Origin: Gammaproteobacteria bacterium
Lineage (GTDB): Bacteria > Pseudomonadota > Gammaproteobacteria > Steroidobacterales > PWYM01
Direction: 5' to 3'
Assembly: GCA_020832005.1 (NCBI GenBank)
Contig: JAFIFN010000029.1
Coordinates: 1-34,588, forward strand
DNA length: 34,588 bases
The position numbers were made by a program, and so were the translations under genes. This document shows, piece after piece, positions 11,738-33,989 of the stretch (positions are counted from its first letter, which is position 1; every line of letters starts with the position of its first letter). Below the pieces are notes generated by a model. It ran no database searches and was not told the DNA's origin. It saw only the letters and a program-made list of their open reading frames with translations.

Positions 11738-14320
11738 TCAGGGCGTCCGTGCAGCGAGTTCGAGGTCGACGAACTGCCGTTTGGTTTCAATCACCCGGGG
11801 ATGAGCGGGCCCCAAGCGGTCGATGCGGATCTCCAGGGCCGCGTCCAGCAAGGCCCGAGCCTCATCGAGGCGGCCTTGCCGCTGACGCAGCACAGCCAGG
11901 TTGGCGGAGATATCGGCCACGCTCGGATGATGATTCCCGAATGCCAACTGCTTGATTTCGAGCGCCTCGAGCAGCAGCGTCTCCGCGTGCGCCCACTCCT
12001 CGCGGTGCAGCGCAATTCGTGCCATCGCATTGAGACTTCTGCCTATGCTTCTGTGCTGCTCAGGCAATCTGGCACGCCTGATTTCCAGGGCCTCGGCCCA
12101 GTAGCGCTCCGCCCCCTCGATATCATCCAGCCCGAGGCGGACCTGGCCCATCATGTGCAGCAGGGCTGCGTTTCGGGGATGGTCATCCCCCAGCGTGCTG
12201 CGCCTCAGCCGCAGCGCCTCAACGTACATCGCGTAGGACTCGTCCAGCCGACCCAGCGCCATCAGGCTGGCCGCCACGTTACCCATCGAGGTCGTCGTGT
12301 ACGGATGCTCGGGGCCCACATCCGGATCGTTCAGCCGCAGGGTGAGCGCTTGTTCGAACTCATCCAGCGCCTCGGCGATACGTCCCTGCTGCCACAACAC
12401 GGCACCGAGATTGTTCCGCGATAACGCTTCCTCATAGGCACTCGCATCCAGGCGAAGACGGATTTCCAGTCCTTCGCGATGCGCCGCCTCGGCACCGCCG
12501 TACTCGCCGAGGGCATTGAGCGTCGCGGCAAGGTTATTAAGCACCGCGGCACGCTGCAGTTCATCGCCGGTGTCCACCAGGGCCAGGGCTTCATGGAACG
12601 CTGCCGCGGCTTCACGTTGAGCACCGTTTTCTGCAAGCGCCAGGCCCAGCGCGTTATAGGCATCTACACGCTCGCGTGGCAGATCTTCGGACACATCCGC
12701 CAGCACGGCTACCGCTTCCGCCATGAGTGCCACAGCCCGCGTGGTCTCGCCCAGATTACGAAACACATAGCCGAGCGTGACCAGCATTGCGGCCTGCACA
12801 TCAGGCGTTTCTGCGAGTTCGCCGGCGCGCTCCACGCCGCGCTCAACCAGGGACATGACCGTCAGCGCGTCGGGTTCGGACGCGAAATGCGGATCAGCGG
12901 AGCGGAACAGGTCGACGAGGTAATCACTGGTCGCCTGCGCCCGCCTGGCATCGCGCTCTGCGCGCTGGGCAGCCGCCTCGGCGCGCATGGCCTCGAGTTC
13001 CGCGCGGTCGCGCTCGGCACTCAGGCGCTCGGTATGCACGAACAGGGCGCCGATCGCCAGCAGCGGGAGCACAAGCGCCGCCGGCAGACCGAGCGGATGC
13101 CGCCGTGCGAATTTGCCAAGCCGGTAGCCAACACTGTCCGCGCGGGCCCGAATCGGCAATCGCCCGCGATGCCGTGCGAGATCATTGGCCAGTTGTTCCA
13201 CCGTCGCATAGCGACGATTCGGCTCCTTGCGCAAAGCGACCTGGCAGATGATGTCCAGGTCACCGCGAAGCAGTCTTCGCAACCGCGGTACAGTAGTCGC
13301 GCGGCGCACGGCCAAGGCATCGGAGTCGGCAGACTCGTAGCAGTCCCCGGAATCTTCCAGTCGCCGCGACGGCGCCAGGGGTGCAATATCCAGTATGGCG
13401 CGACGCAGATCCTCAGCCTCGCCGAGCTCACCCCGATACGGCGAGCGTCCACACAGCAGCACATACAAAAGCGCACCGAGCGCGTAGACATCGCTGGCGG
13501 TCGTCACCGCGTGTCCCATGATCTGCTCGGGGCTGGCCCACATCGGTGTCATCGGCCGTCCGCCCAAGCGGGTCAACTCGCTTGCCTGACCGGCCCCGTC
13601 GTCATCGCTTAGTACCTTCGCGATACCGAAATCCAGCAGTCGCACATCACCATCGCCGGTGACGAGAATATTCGAGGGCTTGATGTCACGGTGGACGACA
13701 AGGTTGCGGTGGGCATACTGGACCGCATCGAGCACCTGTTCAAACAGTCGCAGGCGCTCTTCGACATTCAGGCGCAGACTGTCGCAGTAGTCGGTGATGG
13801 CTATTCCGTCAACATACTCCATGACCAGATAAGGCCAGCCTTCCCGCGTGGTGCCGCCGTCGAGCAATCGCGCGATGTTCGGGTGAGCCAGTCGTGCCAG
13901 GAGCTGGCGTTCAGCTTCAAAGCGACCGACCAGTGCTTCGCTGCCCGGGCCCACAGCCAGCAGCTTCACGGCCACCTGCTGTTCGAACTCGCCATCGTCC
14001 CGACAACCCAGATACACGACGCTCATGCCGCCGCGACCGATTTCGCGCTGCAGGCGATAGGCGCCTGCCCGCTCAGGCATCGCGAAGGTGTCGGAGGCAG
14101 TGAGACCCAGTCGTCCAGCAAGCCGGCCAAGGCGCCGCTCACCCCGGGCATGCGCTGCGAGCAACTCGCGGACGAGTTTCCGGACCTCGGGATCATCCGT
14201 CGCCTGGGCGAGATGCGCTTCCCGGGTGTCCGGCGACAGCGACAGACTCTCCAGCAACAGGGCTTCGACTTCAGGCGTGATCTGCACTGGCGCCCCGGCC
14301 GAATCCGGCTGGCCGGTCAT
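11738..14320 (-). CDS. Transmembrane Ser/Thr protein kinase with C-terminal TPR repeats
   Basis: The 860-aa bacterial Hanks-type kinase has its kinase domain at about 88-385: glycine loop IGRGGMSVVYLG (94-105), ATP Lys in VAVKLL (119), catalytic VVHRDIKPSN (HRD 210-212), DFG at 230-232 and WASPEQ near 261. All catalytic residues are present. A single membrane helix follows at about 409-429, then an Ala/Glu/Arg-rich coiled coil (432-465) and tetratricopeptide-like repeats from about 485 to 850, placing the TPRs in the periplasm. Its ATG overlaps the stop of the ECF sigma gene (ATGA), so the pair is coupled. This sigma/kinase pairing is a recurrent arrangement, and phosphorylation-linked regulation of the sigma factor is plausible but unproven. 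It is paralogous to the kinase at 16635. Confidence 0.93.
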   Translation of the reverse strand: MTGQPDSAGAPVQITPEVEALLLESLSLSPDTREAHLAQATDDPEVRKLVRELLAAHARGERRLGRLAGRLGLTASDTFAMPERAGAYRLQREIGRGGMSVVYLGCRDDGEFEQQVAVKLLAVGPGSEALVGRFEAERQLLARLAHPNIARLLDGGTTREGWPYLVMEYVDGIAITDYCDSLRLNVEERLRLFEQVLDAVQYAHRNLVVHRDIKPSNILVTGDGDVRLLDFGIAKVLSDDDGAGQASELTRLGGRPMTPMWASPEQIMGHAVTTASDVYALGALLYVLLCGRSPYRGELGEAEDLRRAILDIAPLAPSRRLEDSGDCYESADSDALAVRRATTVPRLRRLLRGDLDIICQVALRKEPNRRYATVEQLANDLARHRGRLPIRARADSVGYRLGKFARRHPLGLPAALVLPLLAIGALFVHTERLSAERDRAELEAMRAEAAAQRAERDARRAQATSDYLVDLFRSADPHFASEPDALTVMSLVERGVERAGELAETPDVQAAMLVTLGYVFRNLGETTRAVALMAEAVAVLADVSEDLPRERVDAYNALGLALAENGAQREAAAAFHEALALVDTGDELQRAAVLNNLAATLNALGEYGGAEAAHREGLEIRLRLDASAYEEALSRNNLGAVLWQQGRIAEALDEFEQALTLRLNDPDVGPEHPYTTTSMGNVAASLMALGRLDESYAMYVEALRLRRSTLGDDHPRNAALLHMMGQVRLGLDDIEGAERYWAEALEIRRARLPEQHRSIGRSLNAMARIALHREEWAHAETLLLEALEIKQLAFGNHHPSVADISANLAVLRQRQGRLDEARALLDAALEIRIDRLGPAHPRVIETKRQFVDLELAARTP

Positions 14321-14889
14321 GACTCGGCCGCCTCTCCCAGGTGACGTTCGAGCCAGATCTTCGCCAGTTCCCAGTCACGCCTCACGGTGCTGACGGAGAT
14401 GCCGAGCGCCTCACTGGTTTCCTCGGTCTGGAGCCCGGCGAAGAAGCGGCATTCGATCACGCGCACCTGGCGGGGGTTGCTCGCCTCCAGCGACTCAAGC
14501 GACTGGTGCAGAGCCAGCACATCGGTGGCAAGCGACTGGTCGGGTGCCGGCATCAGCGCCTCGGCCTGCGTCAGACCCACCTGCTGCGGGTTGCTACCCC
14601 GCTTGGCGGCGCTCACCCGCTTGGCCTCATCGACGAGGATATGACGCATCGCCCGGGCCGCCACGGCGAAGAAGTGCCCGCGGTTCTGCCACTGCGGGTT
14701 TGGCAGCTGCACAAGCTTCAGATACGCCTCGTGCACCAGCGCGGTGGCGTTGAGTGTCTCGTTGCCCTGCCACCGGCGGCGCTGCGCCGCCGCCAGGGTC
14801 TTAAGTTCCGAATACACCGCCTCGTACAGGCGGTCGAGGGCACCCCGATCGCCGGCTTCTGCCTCTTTAAGAAGCTGGGTAATCTCCAT
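14317..14889 (-). CDS. ECF-type RNA polymerase sigma factor
   Basis: The 190-aa protein has sigma-70 region 2 at about 15-95 (LYEAVYSELKTLA, ALVHEAYLKL, HFFAVAARAMRHILVDEA) and region 4 at about 125-185 (RQVRVIECRFFAGLQTEETSEALGIS, a helix-turn-helix). It matches the TIGR02999-like ECF group that is often located beside TPR Ser/Thr kinases, as here. No anti-sigma factor is visible, so the adjacent kinase is the likely controller. The ATG at 14889 lies in the 3' arm of a perfect hairpin whose loop holds the GAGGAG ribosome-binding site. The last 4 bp overlap the kinase start. Confidence 0.93.
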   Translation of the reverse strand: MEITQLLKEAEAGDRGALDRLYEAVYSELKTLAAAQRRRWQGNETLNATALVHEAYLKLVQLPNPQWQNRGHFFAVAARAMRHILVDEAKRVSAAKRGSNPQQVGLTQAEALMPAPDQSLATDVLALHQSLESLEASNPRQVRVIECRFFAGLQTEETSEALGISVSTVRRDWELAKIWLERHLGEAAES

Positions 14890-14917
14890 GGACAGGGGTG
14901 CTCCTCAGCCTGTCCAT
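14867..14917 (-). other. Possible 16-codon upstream ORF overlapping sigma start
   Basis: An ATG at 14917-14915 opens a 16-codon frame (MDRLRSTPVHGDYPAS) that ends in TAA at 14867, 20 bases inside the sigma gene in another frame. Translating it would melt the hairpin that contains the sigma start codon. No ribosome-binding site was identified for it. Whether it is translated is unknown. Confidence 0.3.
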
Positions 14918-14918
14918 G
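14887..14918 (-). promoter_or_regulatory. Perfect 10-bp inverted repeat enclosing the ECF sigma translation start
   Basis: CATGGACAGG and CCTGTCCATG are separated by 12 bases. In the sigma mRNA the loop carries GAGGAG and the 3' arm ends with the AUG start codon. As RNA it would be a hairpin sequestering the start. As DNA it could be a dimeric operator. Both readings are inference; the symmetry itself is seen directly. Confidence 0.6.
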
Positions 14919-14924
14919 ATTCTA
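14919..14924 (-). promoter_or_regulatory. Possible -10 box for sigma/kinase operon
   Basis: TAGAAT (5 of 6 matches to TATAAT) lies on the minus strand immediately upstream of the inverted repeat. If used, transcription would start inside the repeat's 5' arm. No good -35 was found, so confidence is low. Confidence 0.25.
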
Positions 14925-14979
14925 CACGCCGATTCCGACGGATCTATAACCAGGCATGCTGGCGATCCGACATGTCCGG

Positions 14980-15720
14980 TCAATTCACGACACTGCCCCC
15001 CGCGGGCGGTGTCACCTCGATCTCCACGAAGTTGCGGCCCGTGAATGTCGGTATTTCTGGCCTGGTGGGCGCGTTGTTCTGCACCTGGATGTAGATGTAC
15101 GGATACGGCGGCTCGTGCGGGGTCCCATTGATGACCTCGAAGACCTGGCCGGCGCAATCACCGAAGTTTTCCGGATCGCTTGAGGCCAGGGCGGTCCCGT
15201 CTAACCCTTGCCATGCGGCGCGCGGATATCGGCCGACGCAGAGCACTGGCCGGTCACGGAAATAACACGTCTGCCCCGAATGCATGAAGCCGGGAAACGC
15301 CGCGGGCACGTCGGCACCATACTGCGCACGGAGTTGCTGGATTGCCTGATCGACGATGTCTTCAGGCGCCTCTTCGATCGCAGCCAGCCACTATTCGAAG
15401 TCCGCGACGCCGGATCCGGTCAGCCAGCCATCGGACTCTGCGAAATCCTGCGCGATACGGTCGATGGCGGCCTGATCGAGTCCGGCTGAGATGAACCCCA
15501 CCGAGTAGAGCAGCAACAGCGTGCTGTCACGGTTGATCTCAGGATCCAGCGCAGCCATGAAAGTCAGCTCCTCGAGTGCGACGGTGAACCCCAGGAAGTC
15601 GCCAAGATACGGAATGCCCCAGTAGTACTTCAGATCGTCGTACTCCCAGCCGTCGGGCATCCAGTAGTCGATGTAGCGCGCAAGAATATGAGTGAACAGG
15701 TTGACGCTGCCCCGGAGCAC
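14980..15720 (-). pseudogene. Unrecognised gene interrupted by one in-frame TAG
   Basis: Two ORFs (15391-15720 and 14980-15309) are in the same frame, and the bases between them also read as good protein: SGVADFE, then TAG at 15393-15391, then WLAAIEEAPEDIVDQAIQQL and on into AAFPGFMHSGQTCYF. The whole frame would be 246 residues with the stop at codon 110. A single C-to-T change of CAG (Gln) would explain it. GTG 15720 has GGAGG 11 nt upstream, but protein-like sequence (TLSLRSALEAENG) continues upstream of it. The nearest ATG (15785) is in a different frame, so a second lesion near the 5' end is possible. No domain family was recognised. Readthrough or a sequencing error remain alternatives to a true pseudogene. 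Confidence 0.6.
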
Positions 15721-15795
15721 GCCGTTTTCTGCCTCCAGCGCCGAGCGCAGGCTCAGCGTCCCGGCAGTTGACGTTGCAGTGTCATGGCGTCTTAC

Positions 15796-16404
15796 TCACA
15801 TTCGGTCAGTGACAACGTCGAAGCGGCCTTCGACACGCACTGTGTCGGTGGGGTCCGGCGGCCCGTCGAGTCGCTGGTAGAACGCCATGTCGGCGCTGAA
15901 TTTCCCAACCAGGCGCACCCGTCCCTGGCGCTGCCGTTCAATCTTCTCGACGATCACATCGGGGCTCAGGGACCGATAAAGAGACGCCTCCATGTCGCCA
16001 TCCAGGTACAGCCGCAAACCCGCCTCCTCAGGGGTACACGGGCACTGGAGATCCAGGCTGGGCAGGCGCATGGACAGGGAAATGGCGTCGTCCTCGGCCA
16101 ACATTTCCCGGGTCGGAAACGCGTGGATGTAAAGGCCGATGCCCCGCGAGGCAGGATTCGGTGAATTCGACAGATCCGCCCACAGGGCTGTGTTGCCATC
16201 CTTGTCGCGATACGTGTGCAGACGCACCGATTCGATTTCGCCATCGTCATGGATGCGCATATCGACCTGCCCGGTCGAGGGCATCGTGACACGTTGCAGA
16301 AACGAACTGCCCGAGCCCTGCGCATGCACGGGCGATGCCGGGACAAGGAAAGTCAGGGTAAGGGCTAGCGCCGGCGCCAGCGCGATCGGCGAGGTTCGTT
16401 TCAT
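15796..16404 (-). CDS. Secreted protein with CPCTP-motif domain
   Basis: The 202-aa exported protein has a signal peptide (residues 1 to about 28, ending PVHA). The mature part has RLHTYRDKDGNTALWADL near 61-78 and QCPCTPEE at 120-127, and ends GRFDVV. The same order of motifs recurs at the C-terminus of the protein encoded at 32556-33989 (LQTFLRDDGNTAAW, PCPCTPE, GRFEAL), so the two share a homologous domain with a paired CxC. I do not recognise a named family. AAGGAG lies 13 nt before the ATG, which is somewhat long. The interrupted gene follows on the same strand, and the second kinase is divergent. Confidence 0.78.
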   Translation of the reverse strand: MKRTSPIALAPALALTLTFLVPASPVHAQGSGSSFLQRVTMPSTGQVDMRIHDDGEIESVRLHTYRDKDGNTALWADLSNSPNPASRGIGLYIHAFPTREMLAEDDAISLSMRLPSLDLQCPCTPEEAGLRLYLDGDMEASLYRSLSPDVIVEKIERQRQGRVRLVGKFSADMAFYQRLDGPPDPTDTVRVEGRFDVVTDRM

Positions 16405-16634
16405 ATTGGTTGGCGAACTCCTTCAGTGGTAGCGCCTTGCGATCGTCAGCTGACGTCCATCGCCAAATGACAGGGCTTGCAACCACAAACGAAATTCGTG
16501 GCGAAACCTGCTCATCTGGACGGGTCGTGAACGCTCTCGGCAGCGTTGTTCGTATTGGTATAGAAGAGCCACTGACTCTCTGGCAAAGTGCCCTGGAGTC
16601 CCGCGTATCCCTCCACCGATGGAGACCGGAGCGC

Positions 16635-19364
16635 ATGATCCGCGAGCACACACCGGAAAACGGACCCGACCCGCTGGCACTCTCTCCGGAGACCGAGGCG
16701 CTGTTGCTGGATGTGCTCGAGCAGCCGCCGGATGCGCGCGGCGACTATCTCTACCAGTCCACCGACGACCCTCAGCTGCGGCAACTCGTCGAGCAGCTGC
16801 TCGCAGTCCACGCCAATGCCGACCGGCGCCTGGGCAGGCTGGCCCGCCGATTGGGTGGTGATTCACAGGCCTCCGCGGCACCGCCGCTGAGCCTGCCGGA
16901 GCGCGCCGGGCCCTACCGGCTGGAGCGCGAACTGGGTCGCGGCGGGATGAGCGTGGTGTGTCTCGGGCATCGCGACGACGGGCAGTTCGAGCAGACCGTC
17001 GCCGTCAAACTGCTGCCCGGCGGCCCGATGCTGGCATCCCTGAGCCGACGTTTCGACGGCGAGCGCCGGATACTCGCGCGCCTGGAGCACCCGAACCTCG
17101 CCCGCCTTATCGATGGCGGCGTCACCGATGAGGGCTGGCCCTATCTGGCGATGGAATACGTCGATGGTGTGCCCATCGACGAATACTGTGACCGCGAGCG
17201 TCTCGACGTGGCGGCACGGCTGGCGCTGTTCGAACAGGTGCTCGAGGCGGTGCAATACGCGCACCGCAACCTGGTGGTGCACCGCGACATCAAGCCGAGC
17301 AATATCCTGGTGACGGGCGACGGTCGCGTGAAACTGCTGGACTTCGGCATCGCCAAGGTGCTCGAAGACGCGGCCGAGAGCGCAGATGCCACGGAGCTCA
17401 CGCGCCTGGGTGGGCGGCCGATGTCGCCGGCGTGGGCCAGCCCGGAGCAGCTCGGCGGCCAGCCCGTGACCACGGCCAGCGACATCTACTCGCTGGGCTT
17501 GCTGCTCTATCGGCTGCTCACCGGCCATCTCCCGCACCCGACGGGCGCTACGGATCTCCAGGCGCTGCGCCAGTCGATGCTCGAGCGGGAACCCACGCGA
17601 CCGTCGCTGAAGGTGCTCGAGGCCGCAGGTGACAACGAGTGCTCACCTGAGGAACTCGCCCAGCGTCGCGCCAGCGGACCGCGCCGGCTGTCACGGGCGC
17701 TCGCGGGTGACCTCGACAACATCGTGCTCACGGCGCTGCGGCGCGAACCCGAGCGCCGCTATGCCACGGCCGAGCAGTTCGCTGCCGATATACAACGTCA
17801 TCGCGCCGGCCTGCCCGTGCGTGCGCGGCCGGACACCTGGGCGTATCGCAGCGGCAAGTTCATCGCCCGACATCGGCTTGCCGTGGCCGGCGCGGTGCTG
17901 GTGCCGATGATGATTATCGGCGGGCTGGTGGTGCACACCGAGCGCCTGCAGGTGGAACGCGACAAGGCCGAACTCGCCGCAGCGCAAGCCGAGCAGGCAC
18001 GCGTGGAGGCCGAAGCGGCTGCGCGCATGGCCAGTCTTGAAGCCCAGCGCAGCGACCGGGTCAGCGACTACCTGGTCAGCCTGTTTCGGGCGGCAGCGCC
18101 TGCCCAAGCGCGAGGCGAGGTCGTTACGGCCCAGGATCTCGTGGCGCTTGGTGCCGGGCAGCTGACCGATCTGGAGACAGAGCCGCTGTTGCGGGCTGCG
18201 TTGTTGACCACGCTTGGCGAGGTCAACGGCGCGCTGGGCCAGTATCGGGAAGCGAACAGCCTGTTCGCTGAAGCGCTGGAGATCTACCGGGGTGATCCGG
18301 ACGCCGATCCGGCCCTCACCGCAGAGGCGTGGAATTATTTCGGGGTCAGTCTGTTTCGTCTGGGTCAGCTCGCCGAAGCGGAGCAGGCCTACCAGGAAGC
18401 GTTGGCACTCGCGCCGGAGGCTGCACGACAGTTACGCGCCCGCACGCTCAATCATCTCGGCGTGGTGTACGTCGTCTCCAACCGTTTCGCCGAATCCAGC
18501 GATGTCCTGGAAGGCGCCCTTGCGCTGCTCGAAGACTTGGCGCCGGGCAGCGCGGATCACGCCAGTACGCTGAACATTCTCGGCACGGTGCGCTCGCGAC
18601 AGGAGCGCCATGACGAGGCCATCGCGATGCTCGAACAGGCGCTCGCGATTCGACGGTCGCTGTATGGCGACGATCACCCGGAGACGACCATCGCACTGAG
18701 CAACCTCGGCACAGTATTGTCCGAAGCAGGTCGCCCCGCTGAGGCCCGGATACACATCAGCGAGGCACTCGAGATCGATCGGGTGATCCTCGGTCCCGAT
18801 CACCCAAGCCTGGCCACGCTGTTGCTGCAGCTTGCTTCGCAGGAACTGCTGCTCGGGGACCCTGCGGCCGCCCGGGGGAACCTGCGACAGGCACTCGATA
18901 TCCAGATCGCCCAGGTCGGAGAGATTCATCCCCTAACCGGGTTCATGCTTCACAACAAGGCGCGTGCGCTGAATGACCTGGGCGAGCAGCGCGCAGCAGA
19001 GGAGTATTATCGTCGGGCAATCGACGTCGGCAGGGCGGTTCACGGCAGTGAAGATCGGGTGCTTGCCGCCTCGTTGCAAGGGCTCGGCGACATAAAAACC
19101 GAGCAGGGCCTGTGGGAGGAAGCGGAGGTGTTGCTGACGCAGTCCCTGAACATGCGTCGTAGCCTGCTGGGCGATGACAGTGAACAGAGCGCTGAATCGT
19201 ATCTGGCGCTCGCGCAACTGGAATCGAGACGTGGTCGGTATGAACAGGCTTTGGCGCATGCGCTCGCCGCGCAGGCCATCTACCGGCAGCGGCTGGCGGC
19301 CGACGATTCCCGCAGGCTGGACGCCGACGCGCTGGTGGAGTCGATTCGTGACGACTTACGGTAA
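16635..19364 (+). CDS. Second transmembrane Ser/Thr kinase with TPR repeats
   Basis: The 909-aa protein is paralogous along its whole length to the kinase at 11738-14320. Its kinase domain has ELGRGGMSVVCLG (about 99-111), ATP Lys 125, VVHRDIKPSN (HRD 216-218), DFG 236-238 and WASPEQ. A membrane helix near 415-440 is followed by a coiled coil and TPR-like repeats to the C-terminus. The ORF track start at 16410 adds 75 non-homologous residues. ATG 16635 matches the paralogue's N-terminus (SPETEALLLDVL versus TPEVEALLLESL) and has GGAG 10 nt and 3 nt upstream. Unlike its paralogue it has no adjacent sigma factor. Its 3' end overlaps the next gene by 17 bp. Confidence 0.92.
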   Translation: MIREHTPENGPDPLALSPETEALLLDVLEQPPDARGDYLYQSTDDPQLRQLVEQLLAVHANADRRLGRLARRLGGDSQASAAPPLSLPERAGPYRLERELGRGGMSVVCLGHRDDGQFEQTVAVKLLPGGPMLASLSRRFDGERRILARLEHPNLARLIDGGVTDEGWPYLAMEYVDGVPIDEYCDRERLDVAARLALFEQVLEAVQYAHRNLVVHRDIKPSNILVTGDGRVKLLDFGIAKVLEDAAESADATELTRLGGRPMSPAWASPEQLGGQPVTTASDIYSLGLLLYRLLTGHLPHPTGATDLQALRQSMLEREPTRPSLKVLEAAGDNECSPEELAQRRASGPRRLSRALAGDLDNIVLTALRREPERRYATAEQFAADIQRHRAGLPVRARPDTWAYRSGKFIARHRLAVAGAVLVPMMIIGGLVVHTERLQVERDKAELAAAQAEQARVEAEAAARMASLEAQRSDRVSDYLVSLFRAAAPAQARGEVVTAQDLVALGAGQLTDLETEPLLRAALLTTLGEVNGALGQYREANSLFAEALEIYRGDPDADPALTAEAWNYFGVSLFRLGQLAEAEQAYQEALALAPEAARQLRARTLNHLGVVYVVSNRFAESSDVLEGALALLEDLAPGSADHASTLNILGTVRSRQERHDEAIAMLEQALAIRRSLYGDDHPETTIALSNLGTVLSEAGRPAEARIHISEALEIDRVILGPDHPSLATLLLQLASQELLLGDPAAARGNLRQALDIQIAQVGEIHPLTGFMLHNKARALNDLGEQRAAEEYYRRAIDVGRAVHGSEDRVLAASLQGLGDIKTEQGLWEEAEVLLTQSLNMRRSLLGDDSEQSAESYLALAQLESRRGRYEQALAHALAAQAIYRQRLAADDSRRLDADALVESIRDDLR

Positions 19365-24361: not shown

Positions 24362-27300
24362 CTAATCGAGAGTGACCAGCGTTGCCACGCCGCCGCGCAG
24401 GCGCTGGTCCTCCAGCCGCCGCGGCGCCTCACCGTCGACGACAATGGTGTGTGTGCCCGCGGCGACCTCGATTTCTTCACCGCCGACAAGACCCGTGGCG
24501 ATGACACTGCCCGCGCGACCCAACACGCGGTAAGGCACGGCGAATGCGCGCTGCAGCGCCAGCACCAGTTCCTCTTCGCTCGCCGAATCGAAATACAGAC
24601 CGCCCGCCTGCGCGGCCAGTGATTCGAACTCGGCCTGGAAGCCCTGGTCGCCGAGCTGAAAGCCGACGATGTTCAGTCGCAGGTCGAAGCCCTGATCGAG
24701 CAGCTGTGCGATCACCGCCTGTGCATCGCCATCGCAGGTCTCCTCGCCGTCGGTCAGCAGCACGACCATCCGTCGGCCAGTCGCATCCGCGAGATCGTCT
24801 GCAGCTTTTGCCAGCGAGTCGGCGATCGGCGTTCTGGCGAGATTGATCGCCGTGATGCCCTCCAGCGAGCTGCGGAAGCCGCTGCGCTGCAGCGGCGACA
24901 GTGGAATCTCGAGATCTGATCGGCAGGCGTTGGCTTCGCGGTTGCCGTAGACCCGCAGCGCGACCGGCGTACCTTCCGGGATGACCTCGATGACTTCGCC
25001 CAGCACGCGCTTGGCAACCTCGATGCGACGCCCGCCTTGCATTCTGCGCAGCATGCTGCCGGAGGCATCCAGGATGATGGACACCGCCCCGGCAGGCACC
25101 AGAGGCTCGGCACTGACAACGCGAAGCCGCGCAGGGCCGGGGTCCTGTTCGAAGCGGCTCGACGCGGTCAGCAGATATTCGGCAGGGTCGCGCAGCTCCT
25201 GTGTGACCCGCTGGAGCGCGGCGTCGAGCTGCGCGGCATCGTAAACCGTTGCGTAGTAGCCGCCATTCACTGCGGCGAAACTCTGCATGGTCGACTGGCG
25301 CCGGCGCAGATCATCAGTAACACGCCCCGGGCGAACCTTGAAGGCATAGACCCGCGGCTTGACCTGTGCCATCGCAGGCCAGAGCGTGCGGCCGATCCCG
25401 CGCATATTGATATCTTCTTCCGCATCACCAATGGCGATGATGGCGCGCTGGCCCGGGCGGTCGCGAAGGGCATCGACCGCATGGATCATCGCCGTGTGCA
25501 CATTGCTGCCCGAGTAGTTGTTGTCGAAGGCATTGAGCCCCAGGGCGACTTCATGCGGGTCGTCCAGGAAGCGCGTGAAGATCGGTGGGCCGTCGAACTG
25601 GATGAACTGGGCCTCATCCAGTCCGGGACGCAGCGAGCGTGCGTACAGGCGCACGGCCCGCTGGATCATGGCCACGTACTGGGCCACCGAACCGCTGGAA
25701 TCCCAGGCGAAAACAATCGACAGCGGTGCCTCGAAGACGCGGATGCGCAACTCCTCCCCAGGCTCCGCGCGCAGCAGTACCTGATGATGGCGTCCGGCGG
25801 TGCGCTCGCTCTCGGGGGTGCGCGGACGGCCGTCTGCGCCCTGGATTTCCAGTCCCGCGCGCAGGCGCTCGACACCACTGAGGGTCAGCTCCATCACGTT
25901 GTGACCCTCCGGCATGCGCAGGCGATACCACGCCTCGGTCTGGCCGAGCTGAACGTGTCCCCTGGCAGGCTCATCGGCAACCAGCGCTGCGGCGGTGGCC
26001 GTGGTCCGGTTGCCCTGCTGCCGCGGCGGCTCGCGCAGGGGCAGCGGGGCCGGGAAGGCATGCTCATACGGCCCGTCCCACCAGTCCGTCCCCCACTCGG
26101 CCAGCGCACTCCGGTAGCTCGCATCAACCGGGGGTTCGTAGATGCGTATCCGGGTCGGCAACATGAAGCTGGCCGCCGCCTCGGCCGCGTTCGATTCGAA
26201 TCGGACATAGCGTGCCCAGACAGGTGTTTCGGCCTGCCAGCGCCCGCCGGAGTCATCGACATCGATCACGGCCACGGTCTCCCATGGACCGATCGGACTG
26301 GCCAGCGCGACCTGCACCGTGAATTGGGAAAAGTGCGGCATGCCCCCTGCAACACGATGGGGCTCGATCACGATCTCGCCGATACGGGCCGAACGCTGGT
26401 CACGAAACCCGATCAGCCATGAAGTAGTCTGTCCGGCCGCCCGTCGCAGCGCGCCCATCTGACTGCCCTCGTCGAGCAGCTGCTCCGCCCAGATGCCGAA
26501 TCCGGCAATCGGGTCGGTATGGATGACGTGGCCGCCCAGCGACAGCTCGGCGAGGTTGAAGCCGCGGCCGCCGCTGAGATCCAGGTCACCCGAGGCCAGC
26601 ACCTTGAAGGCGTTGAGCTCGATGCGCTGCTCGCTGGCCAGTGCCGGCGCGCGCAGGATCAAACGCGCATGACGCGCCATGACGGGCTCGGGCAGCGCGA
26701 ACGCCTGTGGCCTGGCCAATGGCGCCATCTCGGCTTCGAGCACCGTCTCGAAGTGCTCGCCGTCTTCTGACAACGCGACTGCGAACGCCGCCAGCCGCCG
26801 GGCGGGTTCGACGCCTGTCGTATCCAGTACGAACCCGTGGATCGGCGCAGCCGTATCGCCGGCCAGTACGATATCGACATGCTCGCCATGACGGACCTGG
26901 AGGTTGGCGGTTTCCGGCAGGCTGCCGCTGATCAACCGCTCGTGTGCGGTCGTCCCGCTGACCGGGCGTGCGCCAAACTCGCTCCACGCAACGTTGATCG
27001 CGCCAACCAGCGGCTCAGGGAGGACCGCGCCTGGCTGCGGCGACACGGGCCTGGTGGACGGGTCGACCGCAATCTCCAGCGCGGCCGCCACCTGGCGCTG
27101 GTCGGCGTGGCGGGCCGCGAACGCCAGGATAACCGGCTCGGCCGGCGCCAGGTCCCGGCCGCTCAGCGATCGCCAGGCGACTTCGCGTGATTCGCCCGGT
27201 TGAAGCCGGATGTGACTGTCGTCGACTTCGAGCGACCAGGTCCGGTCGCTGGCGCTGCTGATGAGTTCGACCTCGAGCGGCTCATCGCCCTGGTGCTGAA

Positions 27301-29590
27301 GCCGCAGGAGACCCTCGAGCTGCTGGCGCGTGCGTATGAACGGCGCGACCCGCTCGGCCGCGACCTCGGCACTCAATTCCACGGGCAGCGCGGCCGTCAG
27401 CTGCGCCTGCTGCGCGCCGAAATCCACTGACAGGTCGAACTCGCTGTTGCCCTGCAGACGCAGCAGGTAGTCCTGTCCGGCGGCGAGGCGTGCCGGACTG
27501 CTGCGCGCATCGTGTTCCCGCGTCAGCAGGTCGGTGTCCGGATCGTCGGCGTGGAACAGCGCGAGGCGGATCGAACGTGTCCCCTCGACCCGCAATTCAC
27601 TGTCCTGCACAAACCGCGGCAGTCGATACCAGCGTTCGCGCATCGTCGTGTCGAAACGCCCATGGAGTCGAAAATCCTGCGGCAGCGGACGGGCCTGCTC
27701 GGCAAGGCGCTGCGGGTGAAGGACCGTGAGGCGCTGCAGCGGATGGCCTCTTGCAGCAGTGATCTCGTAGCGTCCTTCGCCCGGATCATCAGCGCGTAGC
27801 TGAACATAGTGCGGTCCGGCGTCGAGCAGCAGCGCAGGCGTTGTCGTCTCGCCCGGTGACAGCCGGAACTCCTGCACCGGCCGCGAGCCCCACAGCACCG
27901 TCGCCCGCAGATCCCCGTCATGCGGTGCGGTCAGTGTCAGCGTGATCAGCTCCGGGCCGCGCAGGTCCATCCGCAGGTAGGTGCGCTTGTCGGTCCTGGT
28001 CACATTGCCTTGCAGCGTGGTGCCATCCAGCGGCAGGTCGAACGCCAGTTCGGGTGCATCGCTGGGTTCGGTGACCAGGTTCGGCGGTACCGCGCCGAGT
28101 GACTGCGCCTGGATTTCGTAGTTGCCCTCGTTGCCGGTCAGGGCAAAGATGTGTCGGCCCACATCGAGTACGAGATTGTCGAGGCGCAGCGGACCGGTCT
28201 GTCGCGATGCCCGTCGTGCGCTCTGCAGCGTGGTGTTGTAGCGCCCGCCGCGCTGCACCAGGGAGAGCTCACGGGAAGTCTCACCGCGGGCGATGACACG
28301 CCAGATCTCTGCCTGCCCCTCCACCGTCACGAAGAAGTGTTCGATGTCTCCATCGCGTCCGAAGCTGCCCCGGGCGCGACCGTCAGCGGCCAGCGCCACC
28401 GCCTCTCCAGGCGTGTCGTTGGGTTCGTAGATGACGCCGCGGCGGATGCGCCCACGGCGCTCCCAGCGGATCCTGTAGTCGGTCTCGACGCTGGCCGGGC
28501 GCACGCGCAGGCCATGTGTGCCGGGCTGCAGCACGAGATCGTCGAGCCGCGCCCCCTCGCGGCCCTCGCGACACAGCCGATCAGTGCCGTCCGGGTGCAG
28601 CAGGCAAAGCTCCATGGCGGTTCGCGGCTCGGCCTCGAGGATCAGCGACAGCCGTTGCGCGGTCCATTCTTCACTGAGCTCGAAGCGAAAGAAATCCGGA
28701 TCCCGCGGGCCGGAGCGGCCACTGATCGCATCGCCTTCGCCCACGACAGTCGCCTGCGGCCAGCGGTCGTTTGGCTCGCGTTCCTCGCCGGCCGACACCG
28801 GACCACTGAACTCAAGGTTGATGACCCGTGGGCCGGCATGCCCATCGGCGATCTGCACCAGGTATTCACCTGCCGGCAGCATCAGGTTTGCCAGCCGTGC
28901 GCGACCGGCCCGGTCGACTTCGCGGCTCGCCACCTGCTGGCCCTGGGCGTCGTGTATCCGCAGTTCGGCTTTTCGCCCGGGTGGCACATGGCCGGCGAGG
29001 GTCACGGCGGCCTCCTCCCCAGCCTCATGCGAGAAGCGATACCAGCTTTCGGCCTGCATGGCGTAGTGGTGCAGTGGTCGGCGCTCGGTGATGCGCTGCG
29101 CTGCGTCGGCCTGTGCGTCGGTGGATGGGGGCAGCGATTGCGTCGGTGAGGAGCGCAGGAACACGCGATAGCTCCCGGCGGCTGCCATCCGGGCGCGACT
29201 GATACCGAGCAGGTAATCGCCTTCCTCGACGACCAGACCCTCGAGGACGGCGCGTGGTGATTCGGGCTCGGCCTGGAGCGCGACCAGGACCTCGGGGGAT
29301 TCGTCGGGATCACCCGACCAGCGCAGCAGATCCACGCGCGTGAGGCCGCCCGGGATGCCTTCGAGTTCGATCGTCCACAGCCGCGCGGCCGCAGCGTCCT
29401 CCACACTCCACAGGAAGAAATCCTGGTCGTCCTCGTAGAGCTCGCCGACCAGCGTCGCTTCACCCCTGACCGGGGTGGCCTGGGCCGGCTGATTGTTCGG
29501 CTCACGCTCCACGACAACGCGTGAGGACTGGGCTGACAGCAGGACTGGCCAGAGCAACAACGCAACACGCAGCGTCCGGGACATCCGCAT
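24362..29590 (-). CDS. Giant exported protein with PPC-like repeats and two VWA domains
   Basis: The 1742-aa secreted or surface protein has a signal peptide at residues 1 to about 20. Repeated EPN-type modules, as in pre-peptidase C-terminal (PPC) domains, begin near residues 28, 269, 388 and 513 (EREPNNQPAQAT, EREPNDRWPQAT, YEPNDTPGEA, TEPSDAPELA). The middle has a discoidin-like stretch around GFVLDTTGVEPARRL. Two von Willebrand A domains follow, with metal-site motifs DSSGS at 1297 and DASGS at 1508; the second also has LLTDGEETCDGD. A short beta-rich tail ends GGVATLVTLD. The track's ATG is far upstream. The AAGGAG at 29606-29601 fits ATG 29590 (10 nt), while ATG 29599 is only 1 nt away. 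There is no peptidase domain. An adhesion or complex-assembly role is inferred. Confidence 0.85.
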   Translation of the reverse strand: MRMSRTLRVALLLWPVLLSAQSSRVVVEREPNNQPAQATPVRGEATLVGELYEDDQDFFLWSVEDAAAARLWTIELEGIPGGLTRVDLLRWSGDPDESPEVLVALQAEPESPRAVLEGLVVEEGDYLLGISRARMAAAGSYRVFLRSSPTQSLPPSTDAQADAAQRITERRPLHHYAMQAESWYRFSHEAGEEAAVTLAGHVPPGRKAELRIHDAQGQQVASREVDRAGRARLANLMLPAGEYLVQIADGHAGPRVINLEFSGPVSAGEEREPNDRWPQATVVGEGDAISGRSGPRDPDFFRFELSEEWTAQRLSLILEAEPRTAMELCLLHPDGTDRLCREGREGARLDDLVLQPGTHGLRVRPASVETDYRIRWERRGRIRRGVIYEPNDTPGEAVALAADGRARGSFGRDGDIEHFFVTVEGQAEIWRVIARGETSRELSLVQRGGRYNTTLQSARRASRQTGPLRLDNLVLDVGRHIFALTGNEGNYEIQAQSLGAVPPNLVTEPSDAPELAFDLPLDGTTLQGNVTRTDKRTYLRMDLRGPELITLTLTAPHDGDLRATVLWGSRPVQEFRLSPGETTTPALLLDAGPHYVQLRADDPGEGRYEITAARGHPLQRLTVLHPQRLAEQARPLPQDFRLHGRFDTTMRERWYRLPRFVQDSELRVEGTRSIRLALFHADDPDTDLLTREHDARSSPARLAAGQDYLLRLQGNSEFDLSVDFGAQQAQLTAALPVELSAEVAAERVAPFIRTRQQLEGLLRLQHQGDEPLEVELISSASDRTWSLEVDDSHIRLQPGESREVAWRSLSGRDLAPAEPVILAFAARHADQRQVAAALEIAVDPSTRPVSPQPGAVLPEPLVGAINVAWSEFGARPVSGTTAHERLISGSLPETANLQVRHGEHVDIVLAGDTAAPIHGFVLDTTGVEPARRLAAFAVALSEDGEHFETVLEAEMAPLARPQAFALPEPVMARHARLILRAPALASEQRIELNAFKVLASGDLDLSGGRGFNLAELSLGGHVIHTDPIAGFGIWAEQLLDEGSQMGALRRAAGQTTSWLIGFRDQRSARIGEIVIEPHRVAGGMPHFSQFTVQVALASPIGPWETVAVIDVDDSGGRWQAETPVWARYVRFESNAAEAAASFMLPTRIRIYEPPVDASYRSALAEWGTDWWDGPYEHAFPAPLPLREPPRQQGNRTTATAAALVADEPARGHVQLGQTEAWYRLRMPEGHNVMELTLSGVERLRAGLEIQGADGRPRTPESERTAGRHHQVLLRAEPGEELRIRVFEAPLSIVFAWDSSGSVAQYVAMIQRAVRLYARSLRPGLDEAQFIQFDGPPIFTRFLDDPHEVALGLNAFDNNYSGSNVHTAMIHAVDALRDRPGQRAIIAIGDAEEDINMRGIGRTLWPAMAQVKPRVYAFKVRPGRVTDDLRRRQSTMQSFAAVNGGYYATVYDAAQLDAALQRVTQELRDPAEYLLTASSRFEQDPGPARLRVVSAEPLVPAGAVSIILDASGSMLRRMQGGRRIEVAKRVLGEVIEVIPEGTPVALRVYGNREANACRSDLEIPLSPLQRSGFRSSLEGITAINLARTPIADSLAKAADDLADATGRRMVVLLTDGEETCDGDAQAVIAQLLDQGFDLRLNIVGFQLGDQGFQAEFESLAAQAGGLYFDSASEEELVLALQRAFAVPYRVLGRAGSVIATGLVGGEEIEVAAGTHTIVVDGEAPRRLEDQRLRGGVATLVTLD

Positions 29591-29777
29591 GGTCGGCATT
29601 CTCCTTGCCAGGCAGTCAGGCGACCGAAGCGTCGAGTTTCCGACGGGGAGGCGCCACGAACAACCCTCGGAAAATACCTGAGCAGTTTTGCCGACGGATC
29701 TCGTTTGAGAGGAGGTGACCGCAGTATTCGTGTGCGGCGCCGTGACCCCTGAAGCCACATCCGCAAGGAGAAATCCG

Positions 29778-30368
29778 ATGACCGATTTGCCCCGTCCTCA
29801 CGCGCTGGATCGTCGGCGCCTGCTCATTGGTACGGCCCTGCTGGTCGGTGCTGCGACCGTGGCACCAGTGACCCTCGGCCGCGAGCAAGGCCGCCTGGAG
29901 ATCCGCGTGCGCGATCCGAGACGACTGGAGGGACTACGTGGCGAGGAGCTTCGCAGAGCCTTGCTGGAACACCTCCAGATTCGCAGCGCAGATGCCAGAG
30001 AGGCGATTCCCGTCGCGCTGTGCGTCGTTCGCGTGGAAGGCGGCCGTGTCGCCGAGGTGTTCATGTCTGGGGAATTCCGCGCGGCGGGAGGTGAGAACTC
30101 AATCCCTGGGGGAGACATGTTTATCCCTGGAGGGGATATGTTCTTTCCACGAGATATGTTCATCCCGGGCGGAGACATGTTCATCCCGGGGGGCGATATG
30201 TTCTACCCACCGCAGGGGGCGGAGCGGTACGCCGCCGAGGCTGCCGTTCGCGTGCTGGGCGAGCAACGCGCCGAGCATGGGCTGTTCTTCGTGGTGATTG
30301 CGGCAGATCCGCGGGTTCGCGAGTCGATCGCCTCATCGGGCACCGCGCTCCCCCTGGCTCGCGGTTAG
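29778..30368 (+). CDS. Tat-exported protein with GGDMFIP heptad repeats
   Basis: The 196-aa protein has a Tat-type leader (DRRRLLIG, hydrophobic run, end near residue 34). Residues 35-105 are a small alpha/beta domain with one Cys. Residues 109-142 are five near-identical units, IPGGDMF x2, FPRDMF, IPGGDMF x2, ending YPPQG. A short alpha/beta tail (RYAAEAAVRVLGEQRAEHGLFFVVIA) closes it. The protein contains no Trp. ATG 29778 has AAGGAG 7 nt upstream. The track start (29715) would add a non-signal extension. A flavoprotein gene begins 7 bp after the stop. No family was recognised; metal binding through Asp/Met or modification of the repeat are possibilities only. Confidence 0.8.
   Translation: MTDLPRPHALDRRRLLIGTALLVGAATVAPVTLGREQGRLEIRVRDPRRLEGLRGEELRRALLEHLQIRSADAREAIPVALCVVRVEGGRVAEVFMSGEFRAAGGENSIPGGDMFIPGGDMFFPRDMFIPGGDMFIPGGDMFYPPQGAERYAAEAAVRVLGEQRAEHGLFFVVIAADPRVRESIASSGTALPLARG
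30102..30203 (+). repeat. Five-unit IPGGDMF-encoding tandem repeat
   Basis: Four 21-base units and one 18-base unit encode IPGGDMF, IPGGDMF, FPRDMF, IPGGDMF, IPGGDMF. Synonymous positions differ between units (CCT/CCG, GGG/GGA/GGC, GAC/GAT). The peptide is therefore conserved more tightly than the DNA, which argues for selection on the protein rather than a fresh duplication. Confidence 0.9.
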
Positions 30369-32555: not shown

Positions 32556-33989
32556 ATGAGAACAGTGAGCACGGCTTTCAACGGACTCTGTTTGGCTGTC
32601 GCAGCAGGCCTGGCCTGGCCGCTTGCGTTGCAAGCCGCCGAGGGCCTGTACCTCGAGCAGCGCATGTCCACCGAACAGCAGCGTGACCATGACGAAAGTC
32701 ACATGCGCAGCTGGGTCCAGGACGAGCGCTTTCGCATGGAGTTCGTCGACAGCGAACATCCCTTGTTCGCGGCAGGCACCTACATGCTGAGTCTCGACGG
32801 CGGCGAGACCAGCTATCTCGTCGATCCGGCGGCGCAGACCTACACACGGGTCGCGCCGGCCGAAATCGCCGAACAGCTGTTCGCCGGGCTGACGGCCATG
32901 GAGGACGAGGGCGGCGACGGGGCCACCCGCCAGATGATCGATATCCAGTTTTCGGACGTGTTCTCGGAAGATCTGGGCACGGCGGCTGGCGAACCCGTGT
33001 TGGGATACTCCACAACGATTCACCGCGTACGCTCCGGCTACACCATGGAGCTCAAGGTGCTGTTCATGACTCATCGCCAGAGCGTGGAGACGGTCACCGA
33101 GCTCTGGGTCACCGGCGAGATCGACTCGCCACGCATCAGCGCATGGTTCGACATCGGCACGGTGACGGGTAATGAAGAGTCCGATGCCGCGCTGATCGAC
33201 CCGCTGGCGTCAATATCGGGCACGGTGCTTCGATCGGTGCACGAGACGACCGTTCGCGCCGGCCGCCGCGGTCGGCCACAACAAAGCCGCAGTGTCATGG
33301 AGGTCACCGCACTGAGGCACGAGTCCATCGACAGCAGCCTGTTCGAACTGCCCGCAGGCTTTGCCGAGCAGTCACTGGCCATGCGCCTGGGCGGTACCGA
33401 GATGCCTTCAGTGGCCCGCGGGCCCGAACCCTCCGGGGGTGCCGTGCGCCGGGTCGGGCGGATGTTCGGCGGTGTGTTCAACCGTGAATCGGACGACGAA
33501 GAGCGCAGCCTGGAGGAACGTATTTCCACCCTGATGCGGGTGCCCACCGGTGACCTGGAACTGCTCATGGATGGCAAAGCACTGAGGCTGCAGACCTTCC
33601 TGCGCGACGACGGCAACACCGCGGCCTGGGTGGCACAGGCCGATGGCAGCTTCGCGGTGTTCGTCAATGGCTTTCATGACGGCCACGACGGCTATCGGGA
33701 CACCATCAGTGTCCGTGCCATTGTCAGCGGGTTCGACACGCCGTGCCCGTGCACCCCCGAAAGAGTCGTCATCCGGTTCCACCAGGGCGACGATCGGATG
33801 ACGAACTTCTACGAGTCGACCGATGCGGAGCTCGTGTTTACCCAACTGGACCGCAACGGCGATCAACTCGAGGTGGCCGGCGAGTTTGCCGGGCCTTTCG
33901 GTTTCAAGCGCGATATGGACTCGACCCCGGGACAGCGCATCCACGGTGAGGGCCGCTTCGAGGCGCTGGCGAACCGCGCCGGGCATTGA
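32556..33989 (+). CDS. Secreted two-domain protein: DUF4412-like plus CPCTP domain
   Basis: The 477-aa protein has a signal peptide (residues 1 to about 27). Residues 28-285 look like a DUF4412-type module (YLEQRMSTEQQ, SWVQDERFRMEF, YLVDPAAQTYTRV). A linker with a basic patch follows. Residues 345-470 match the secreted protein at 15796-16404: LQTFLRDDGNTAAW, PCPCTPE at 396-402, and C-terminal GRFEAL. The ORF track extends to 32415; ATG 32556 has GGAGGGTGGAG just upstream and starts at the signal peptide. It is the last gene of the four-gene run, 37 bp after the LamG-like gene. Function is unknown; the paired-Cys domain may be redox- or metal-related. Confidence 0.82.
   Translation: MRTVSTAFNGLCLAVAAGLAWPLALQAAEGLYLEQRMSTEQQRDHDESHMRSWVQDERFRMEFVDSEHPLFAAGTYMLSLDGGETSYLVDPAAQTYTRVAPAEIAEQLFAGLTAMEDEGGDGATRQMIDIQFSDVFSEDLGTAAGEPVLGYSTTIHRVRSGYTMELKVLFMTHRQSVETVTELWVTGEIDSPRISAWFDIGTVTGNEESDAALIDPLASISGTVLRSVHETTVRAGRRGRPQQSRSVMEVTALRHESIDSSLFELPAGFAEQSLAMRLGGTEMPSVARGPEPSGGAVRRVGRMFGGVFNRESDDEERSLEERISTLMRVPTGDLELLMDGKALRLQTFLRDDGNTAAWVAQADGSFAVFVNGFHDGHDGYRDTISVRAIVSGFDTPCPCTPERVVIRFHQGDDRMTNFYESTDAELVFTQLDRNGDQLEVAGEFAGPFGFKRDMDSTPGQRIHGEGRFEALANRAGH

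Follow-up and report, generated by a model that had tools for sequence, protein, structure and literature searches.

The surroundings of the gene studied here are best compared with the EcfK-PknS and EcfP-PknT pairs, i.e. ECF43 sigma factors paired with PknS-type kinases. The TPRs of PknS are described as periplasmic, and activation of PknS via its periplasmic region is left as an open question (PMC13147305). The cysteine motif has a described counterpart in mitochondrial CHCHD4, whose redox motif is a CPC pair (PMC12114033).

The window analysed here is a whole stretch of 34,588 nucleotides from the genome of an uncultured gammaproteobacterium, and it encodes two proteins with a CPC-type domain. 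P0001 is a stand-alone domain protein of 202 aa encoded on the minus strand (15796..16404; translation from the plus strand runs into stops), and its gene lies upstream of genes for an ECF43-type sigma factor and a PknS-like kinase. P0002 is a fusion protein of 477 aa on the plus strand (32556..33989), in which the CPC-type domain occupies the C-terminal ~160 residues (about residues 315-477, 33498..33986), and it is not beside a kinase. Only these two copies were found in the 4.18 Mb genome. Alignments and profiles show that P0001 is paralogous to the C-terminal part of P0002, and that these two domains belong to an undescribed gammaproteobacterial family and evolve under purifying selection.

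Two paralogous domains

Residues 48-201 of P0001 match the C-terminus of P0002 in BLASTP with 60.8 bits (E=2e-15, 25% identity, 154 aa), which bears out the shared domain proposed in the preliminary description. That proposal was built on motifs said to follow each other in the same order and spacing. DGNTA(L/A)W, CPCTPE and EGRF(D/E) are indeed common to both proteins in the same order (D69/C121/E192 in P0001, D352/C397/E465 in P0002), but their spacing is similar rather than identical, the gaps being 52 vs 45 and then 71 vs 68 residues.

Similarity was also found outside the CPCTP pentapeptide. With the pentapeptide masked and 4000 shuffled sequences as the control, P0001 reaches 27.0 bits against a domain profile of the two 477-aa orthologues, where the best shuffle has 14.7; in the reverse direction P0002 reaches 16.0 bits against the P0001-side profile, where the best shuffle has 7.9. 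A profile of the remote relatives described below (alignment A6), in whose input CPCTP never occurred, scores both proteins as well, with 15.3 and 14.0 bits against a best shuffle of 7.5. When all three motifs are masked, the direct similarity between P0001 and P0002 falls to 5.7 and 0.7 bits, i.e. to the level of the shuffles, and is not significant, as one would expect if the two proteins had converged by chance on short motifs. Such a convergence is nevertheless hardly credible in view of the E-value of the pair, the significance that persists without CPCTP and the independent profile that recognises both proteins. Taken together, the masked-profile scores and those of the remote-relative profile mean that the similarity extends past the pentapeptide, yet is concentrated in the motifs.

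The architecture is as first described: P0001 stands alone behind a signal-like N-terminus (~residues 1-28, by eye), and the domain of P0002 follows a DUF4412-like module. The match of the N-terminal half of P0002 to DUF4412 (PF14371) is borderline in hmmscan (E=4e-4, 20.6 bits vs a cut-off of 21.6), covers profile positions 83-191 only (32946..33362, plus strand) and reaches 21.9 bits in a genome-level search. The CPC domain of P0002 falls outside this match, and P0001 contains no DUF4412-like part. Hydrophobic N-termini are found by eye in P0001, P0002 and their relatives, and this suggests that both are putative exported proteins.

Relatives and distribution

A peptide-pattern scan of genome contigs gave a sole match, the MAG PLM2.Bin7, in which both proteins are present on separate contigs (L009 and L010); the scan used two narrow patterns that remote relatives could escape. 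The orthologue of P0001 is 86% and that of P0002 98% identical. A single-protein search in 59 related genomes returned the two copies of the window only, a two-row profile run on 396 genomes of the order returned the present genome only, and early profiles found no further convincing member in the 396 order and 369 class genomes.

In a search of a phylum sample with profile A2 a relative appeared in G1054 (E=6.8e-7). G1054 belongs to a family that we take to be Halomonadaceae-like from the neighbouring genes, and 81 sampled genomes of that family contained seven members (alignment A6). Two other matches of the A2 search are probably due to chance: the stretch at G970 (E=0.003) has a long ORF for a VWA-like protein opposite or next to it, and the stretch at G891 (E=0.009) has internal stops. 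A profile-profile comparison (hhalign) of the four CPC-type rows with the seven A6 members gave a probability of 95.4% (E=1.7e-8, 127 columns), and the combined profile added one more relative, L037 in G473 (E=1.3e-18). A phylum sample searched later yielded no additional genome with the domain. Viral contigs yielded no relative with profile A2 and no usable stretch with profile A10, and tblastn against plasmids gave no match for P0001, a remote relative or the lipoprotein-like protein discussed below. Within the sampled genomes the distribution of the family in gammaproteobacteria is sporadic.

The A6 members and L037 resemble the CPC-type proteins in their size (~150 aa), in the signal-like N-terminus and in a common pattern (G.LDGe..W..L, (A/T)-F, YTS, G...G.LAL, I.V.FD..A). 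They differ in that they are only 15-24% identical to P0001, lack CPCTPE and have other gene neighbours. Those examined lie near dppA/mpl-type genes or near genes for a PPIase and an ABC transporter, while the one outside the family sample, L037, is next to flagellar genes (flgM/flgN-like); none of the remote relatives examined is beside kinases.

P0001 has no family match in Pfam (none at E<=10), NCBIfam or PHROGs, and PDB sequence searches gave nothing meaningful for the domain. DUF6252 (PF19765), whose strand pattern presumably resembles that of the domain, was used as a lead and was rejected as an identity, as its model has no match anywhere in the genome at E<=1. Compared with PLM2.Bin7, dN/dS is 0.21 for P0001, 0.26 for the domain of P0002 and 0.11 for the N-terminal part of P0002; these values come from single pairs and a simple counting method, and fit real genes on which purifying selection acts. 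What emerges is a small family of probably exported domains that is absent from every library searched.

AlphaFold models made from a four-row alignment had a mean pLDDT of 39.1 for P0001 and 33.0 for the fusion protein P0002. The drafts of the domain consist of nearly all strands, about nine in number, and the domain is probably beta-rich. Because pLDDT reaches only 39 and 33 the models are unfit for fold assignment, and neither the modelled fold nor the loop position of CPC is secure at these values.

The sigma factor and kinase genes around P0001

The ECF sigma factor gene (TIGR02999/PF07638) is located at 14317..14889 on the minus strand. Its sigma2.2 region, NATALVHEAYLKL, is ECF43-like: by eye, and compared with the motif given in PMC13147305, the acidic DxxD is replaced and the conserved Thr is kept. 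The adjoining gene on the same strand (11738..14320) overlaps it and codes for a PknS-like Ser/Thr kinase with a kinase domain and C-terminal TPRs. A second PknS-like kinase gene (16635..19364, plus strand, the start being taken as the ATG at 16635) is divergent from P0001. The sigma factor has two paralogues in the same genome (G000:C136:18147-18680, 46% identity; G000:C21:370-903, 39%), and its best relative among four congeners is 43% identical. None of the further ECF sigma loci looked at, in this genome and in two congeners, has a CPC-type protein nearby. A promoter scan of 14200-16900 gave nothing above chance. PADLOC gave no match for the CPC proteins, and its matches on the second kinase reflect the kinase domain.

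Between P0001 and the sigma gene there is a remnant of a lipoprotein-like gene (14977..15785, minus strand). The ATG at 15785 reads MTLQRQLPGR and then a stop, a TAG interrupts the frame that survives, and ~1.3 kb is missing in comparison to the 632-aa open frame of PLM2.Bin7 (L009:5893-7761). In PLM2.Bin7 the gene for P0001 is followed by that for the 632-aa lipoprotein-like protein and then by the sigma factor gene, and the second kinase gene is divergent. This conserved order is weak evidence because the two CPC-type genomes are very close relatives, and the decay of the lipoprotein-like gene in the present genome indicates that the cluster is in flux.

Two further observations concern the kinase genes. 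The kinase-coding part of the second kinase is mostly 94-100% identical to PLM2.Bin7 (dS 0.05), and its TPR-coding part (~18317-19317) is ~63-85% identical to the same contig (L009; dS 0.70), which suggests a mosaic gene with recombination of the sensor part. An inverted repeat (13455-14079 / 16894-17518; 625 nt, 71% complementary) derives from the two oppositely oriented kinase genes and suggests an old duplication.

The domain had been thought to tie the kinase region to the heptad-repeat cluster. This part of the proposal gained no support, as what connects the two regions is paralogy within one genome, and no functional link between them was found. The repeats themselves are five imperfect 21-bp tandem copies (30102-30203), and in the protein encoded at 29718-30365 they give rise to the (I/F)PGGDMF heptads. 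A protein of 1798 aa, encoded at 24362-29758 (minus strand), matches VWA at its C-terminus and, weakly, F5/8 type C.

The cysteine pair

CPCTPE corresponds to residues 121-126 of P0001 (16027..16044, minus strand) and residues 397-402 of P0002 (33744..33761, plus strand). The preliminary description took the paired cysteines to suggest a redox or metal site and left their invariance to be checked. Within the CPC type the pair is constant: both Cys are kept in 4/4 sequences (the two window proteins and their two PLM2.Bin7 orthologues), as is the Glu after CPC(T/I)P, although the pentapeptide itself is not invariant, since the PLM2.Bin7 orthologue of P0002 (L010) has CPCIPE, i.e. Ile in place of Thr. 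Beyond the CPC type the constancy ends. The position of CPCTPE is gapped in 8/8 remote relatives (the seven A6 members and L037, which has no Cys at all), and a segment of this kind was seen only in this genome and in its close relative PLM2.Bin7. As all eight remote relatives lack the segment, the pair is not supported as the defining site of the domain; judged from these alignments it is a putative lineage-specific insertion of six residues outside the core of the domain, where the word insertion assumes that the A6 state is the older one. On that assumption a single lineage of the family would have gained the Cys pair with this short segment. The pair contains the only Cys of the mature CPC-type proteins (C12 of P0002 sits in the signal-like segment), which fits a possible loop disulfide or metal site.

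Proposed role

The explanation that we favour as a whole, i.e. an exported binding module with a CPC loop and a possible kinase partner, has in our estimate a probability of about 45%. We suggest that the domain is exported and acts outside the cytoplasm as a beta-rich structural or binding module, which would be used either alone (P0001) or fused to another exported, DUF4412-like module (P0002). The six-residue insertion would place the only two mature Cys in a loop between two strands. Once exported, the two Cys would most likely be joined in a tight CxC disulfide and so make the loop rigid, or else they would bind a metal, and in either state the loop may alter what the domain binds. Judging from gene position, P0001 could act in the periplasm as a partner to the adjacent PknS-like kinases, which have TPR domains, and this partnership could feed the ECF43-type sigma factor. 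Such a partner role is possible because the sigma factor is ECF43-like and the kinase carries TPRs like those of PknS, which are periplasmic according to PMC13147305.

Other readings give the cysteines, or the neighbourhood, a different weight. The CPC pair might be a redox-active or disulfide-exchange site, which would make P0001 and P0002 periplasmic thiol oxidoreductases or redox sensors; there are only two Cys, all four sequences have them whereas the residue that follows can be T or I, and CPC is the redox motif of CHCHD4 (PMC12114033). We nevertheless find this doubtful, as the rest of the CHCHD4 architecture is absent, the relatives do without the segment, and searches of Pfam, NCBIfam, PHROGs and PDB for a thioredoxin-like or other known thiol oxidoreductase gave no family match for P0001, nor was any oxidoreductase family matched by the two proteins in Pfam, NCBIfam or PDB. 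Soft metals are bound by CxC pairs in many proteins, and together with the Glu kept 4/4 after CPC(T/I)P this speaks for a metal-binding site in a periplasmic metal chaperone or sensor. Beyond the pair the four-sequence alignment offers neither another Cys nor an invariant His or Met as a partner, and the family scans made here recognised no gene for metal transport or resistance, so we hold a metal site to be improbable.

An exported P0001 might also take no part in the kinase pathway; its CPC insertion would then be a stabilising or neutral lineage-specific loop. The absence of kinase linkage in the remote relatives examined and a cluster in flux agree with this. On the other side, the dN/dS of 0.21 and the two Cys kept in all four sequences speak for a protein that matters, and probably for a pair that does too, and we consider an entirely unconnected P0001 rather unlikely. 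At the opposite end, P0001 could provide the periplasmic input to a pathway of ECF43 sigma factor and kinase, with a CPC loop that senses redox state or metal and docks on the periplasmic TPR domain of a PknS-like kinase, and with P0002 as a second, envelope-linked input; in this full form the idea is very improbable. The finding itself is real but modest, a further uncharacterised exported domain that carries a clear motif.

Comparison with known systems

The likeness to CHCHD4 is limited to the CPC pair, as nothing else of its architecture is found in P0001 or P0002. The likeness to the EcfK-PknS and EcfP-PknT pairs concerns the neighbours of P0001. The sigma2.2 Thr is alike (NATA here vs the QTTA consensus), and the window kinase likewise has C-terminal TPRs and a gene that overlaps the sigma gene; a CPC-type protein is not mentioned in the available part of PMC13147305. 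If P0001 were a partner of the kinase TPRs, it would bear on the open question raised in that source, i.e. how PknS is activated via its periplasmic region.
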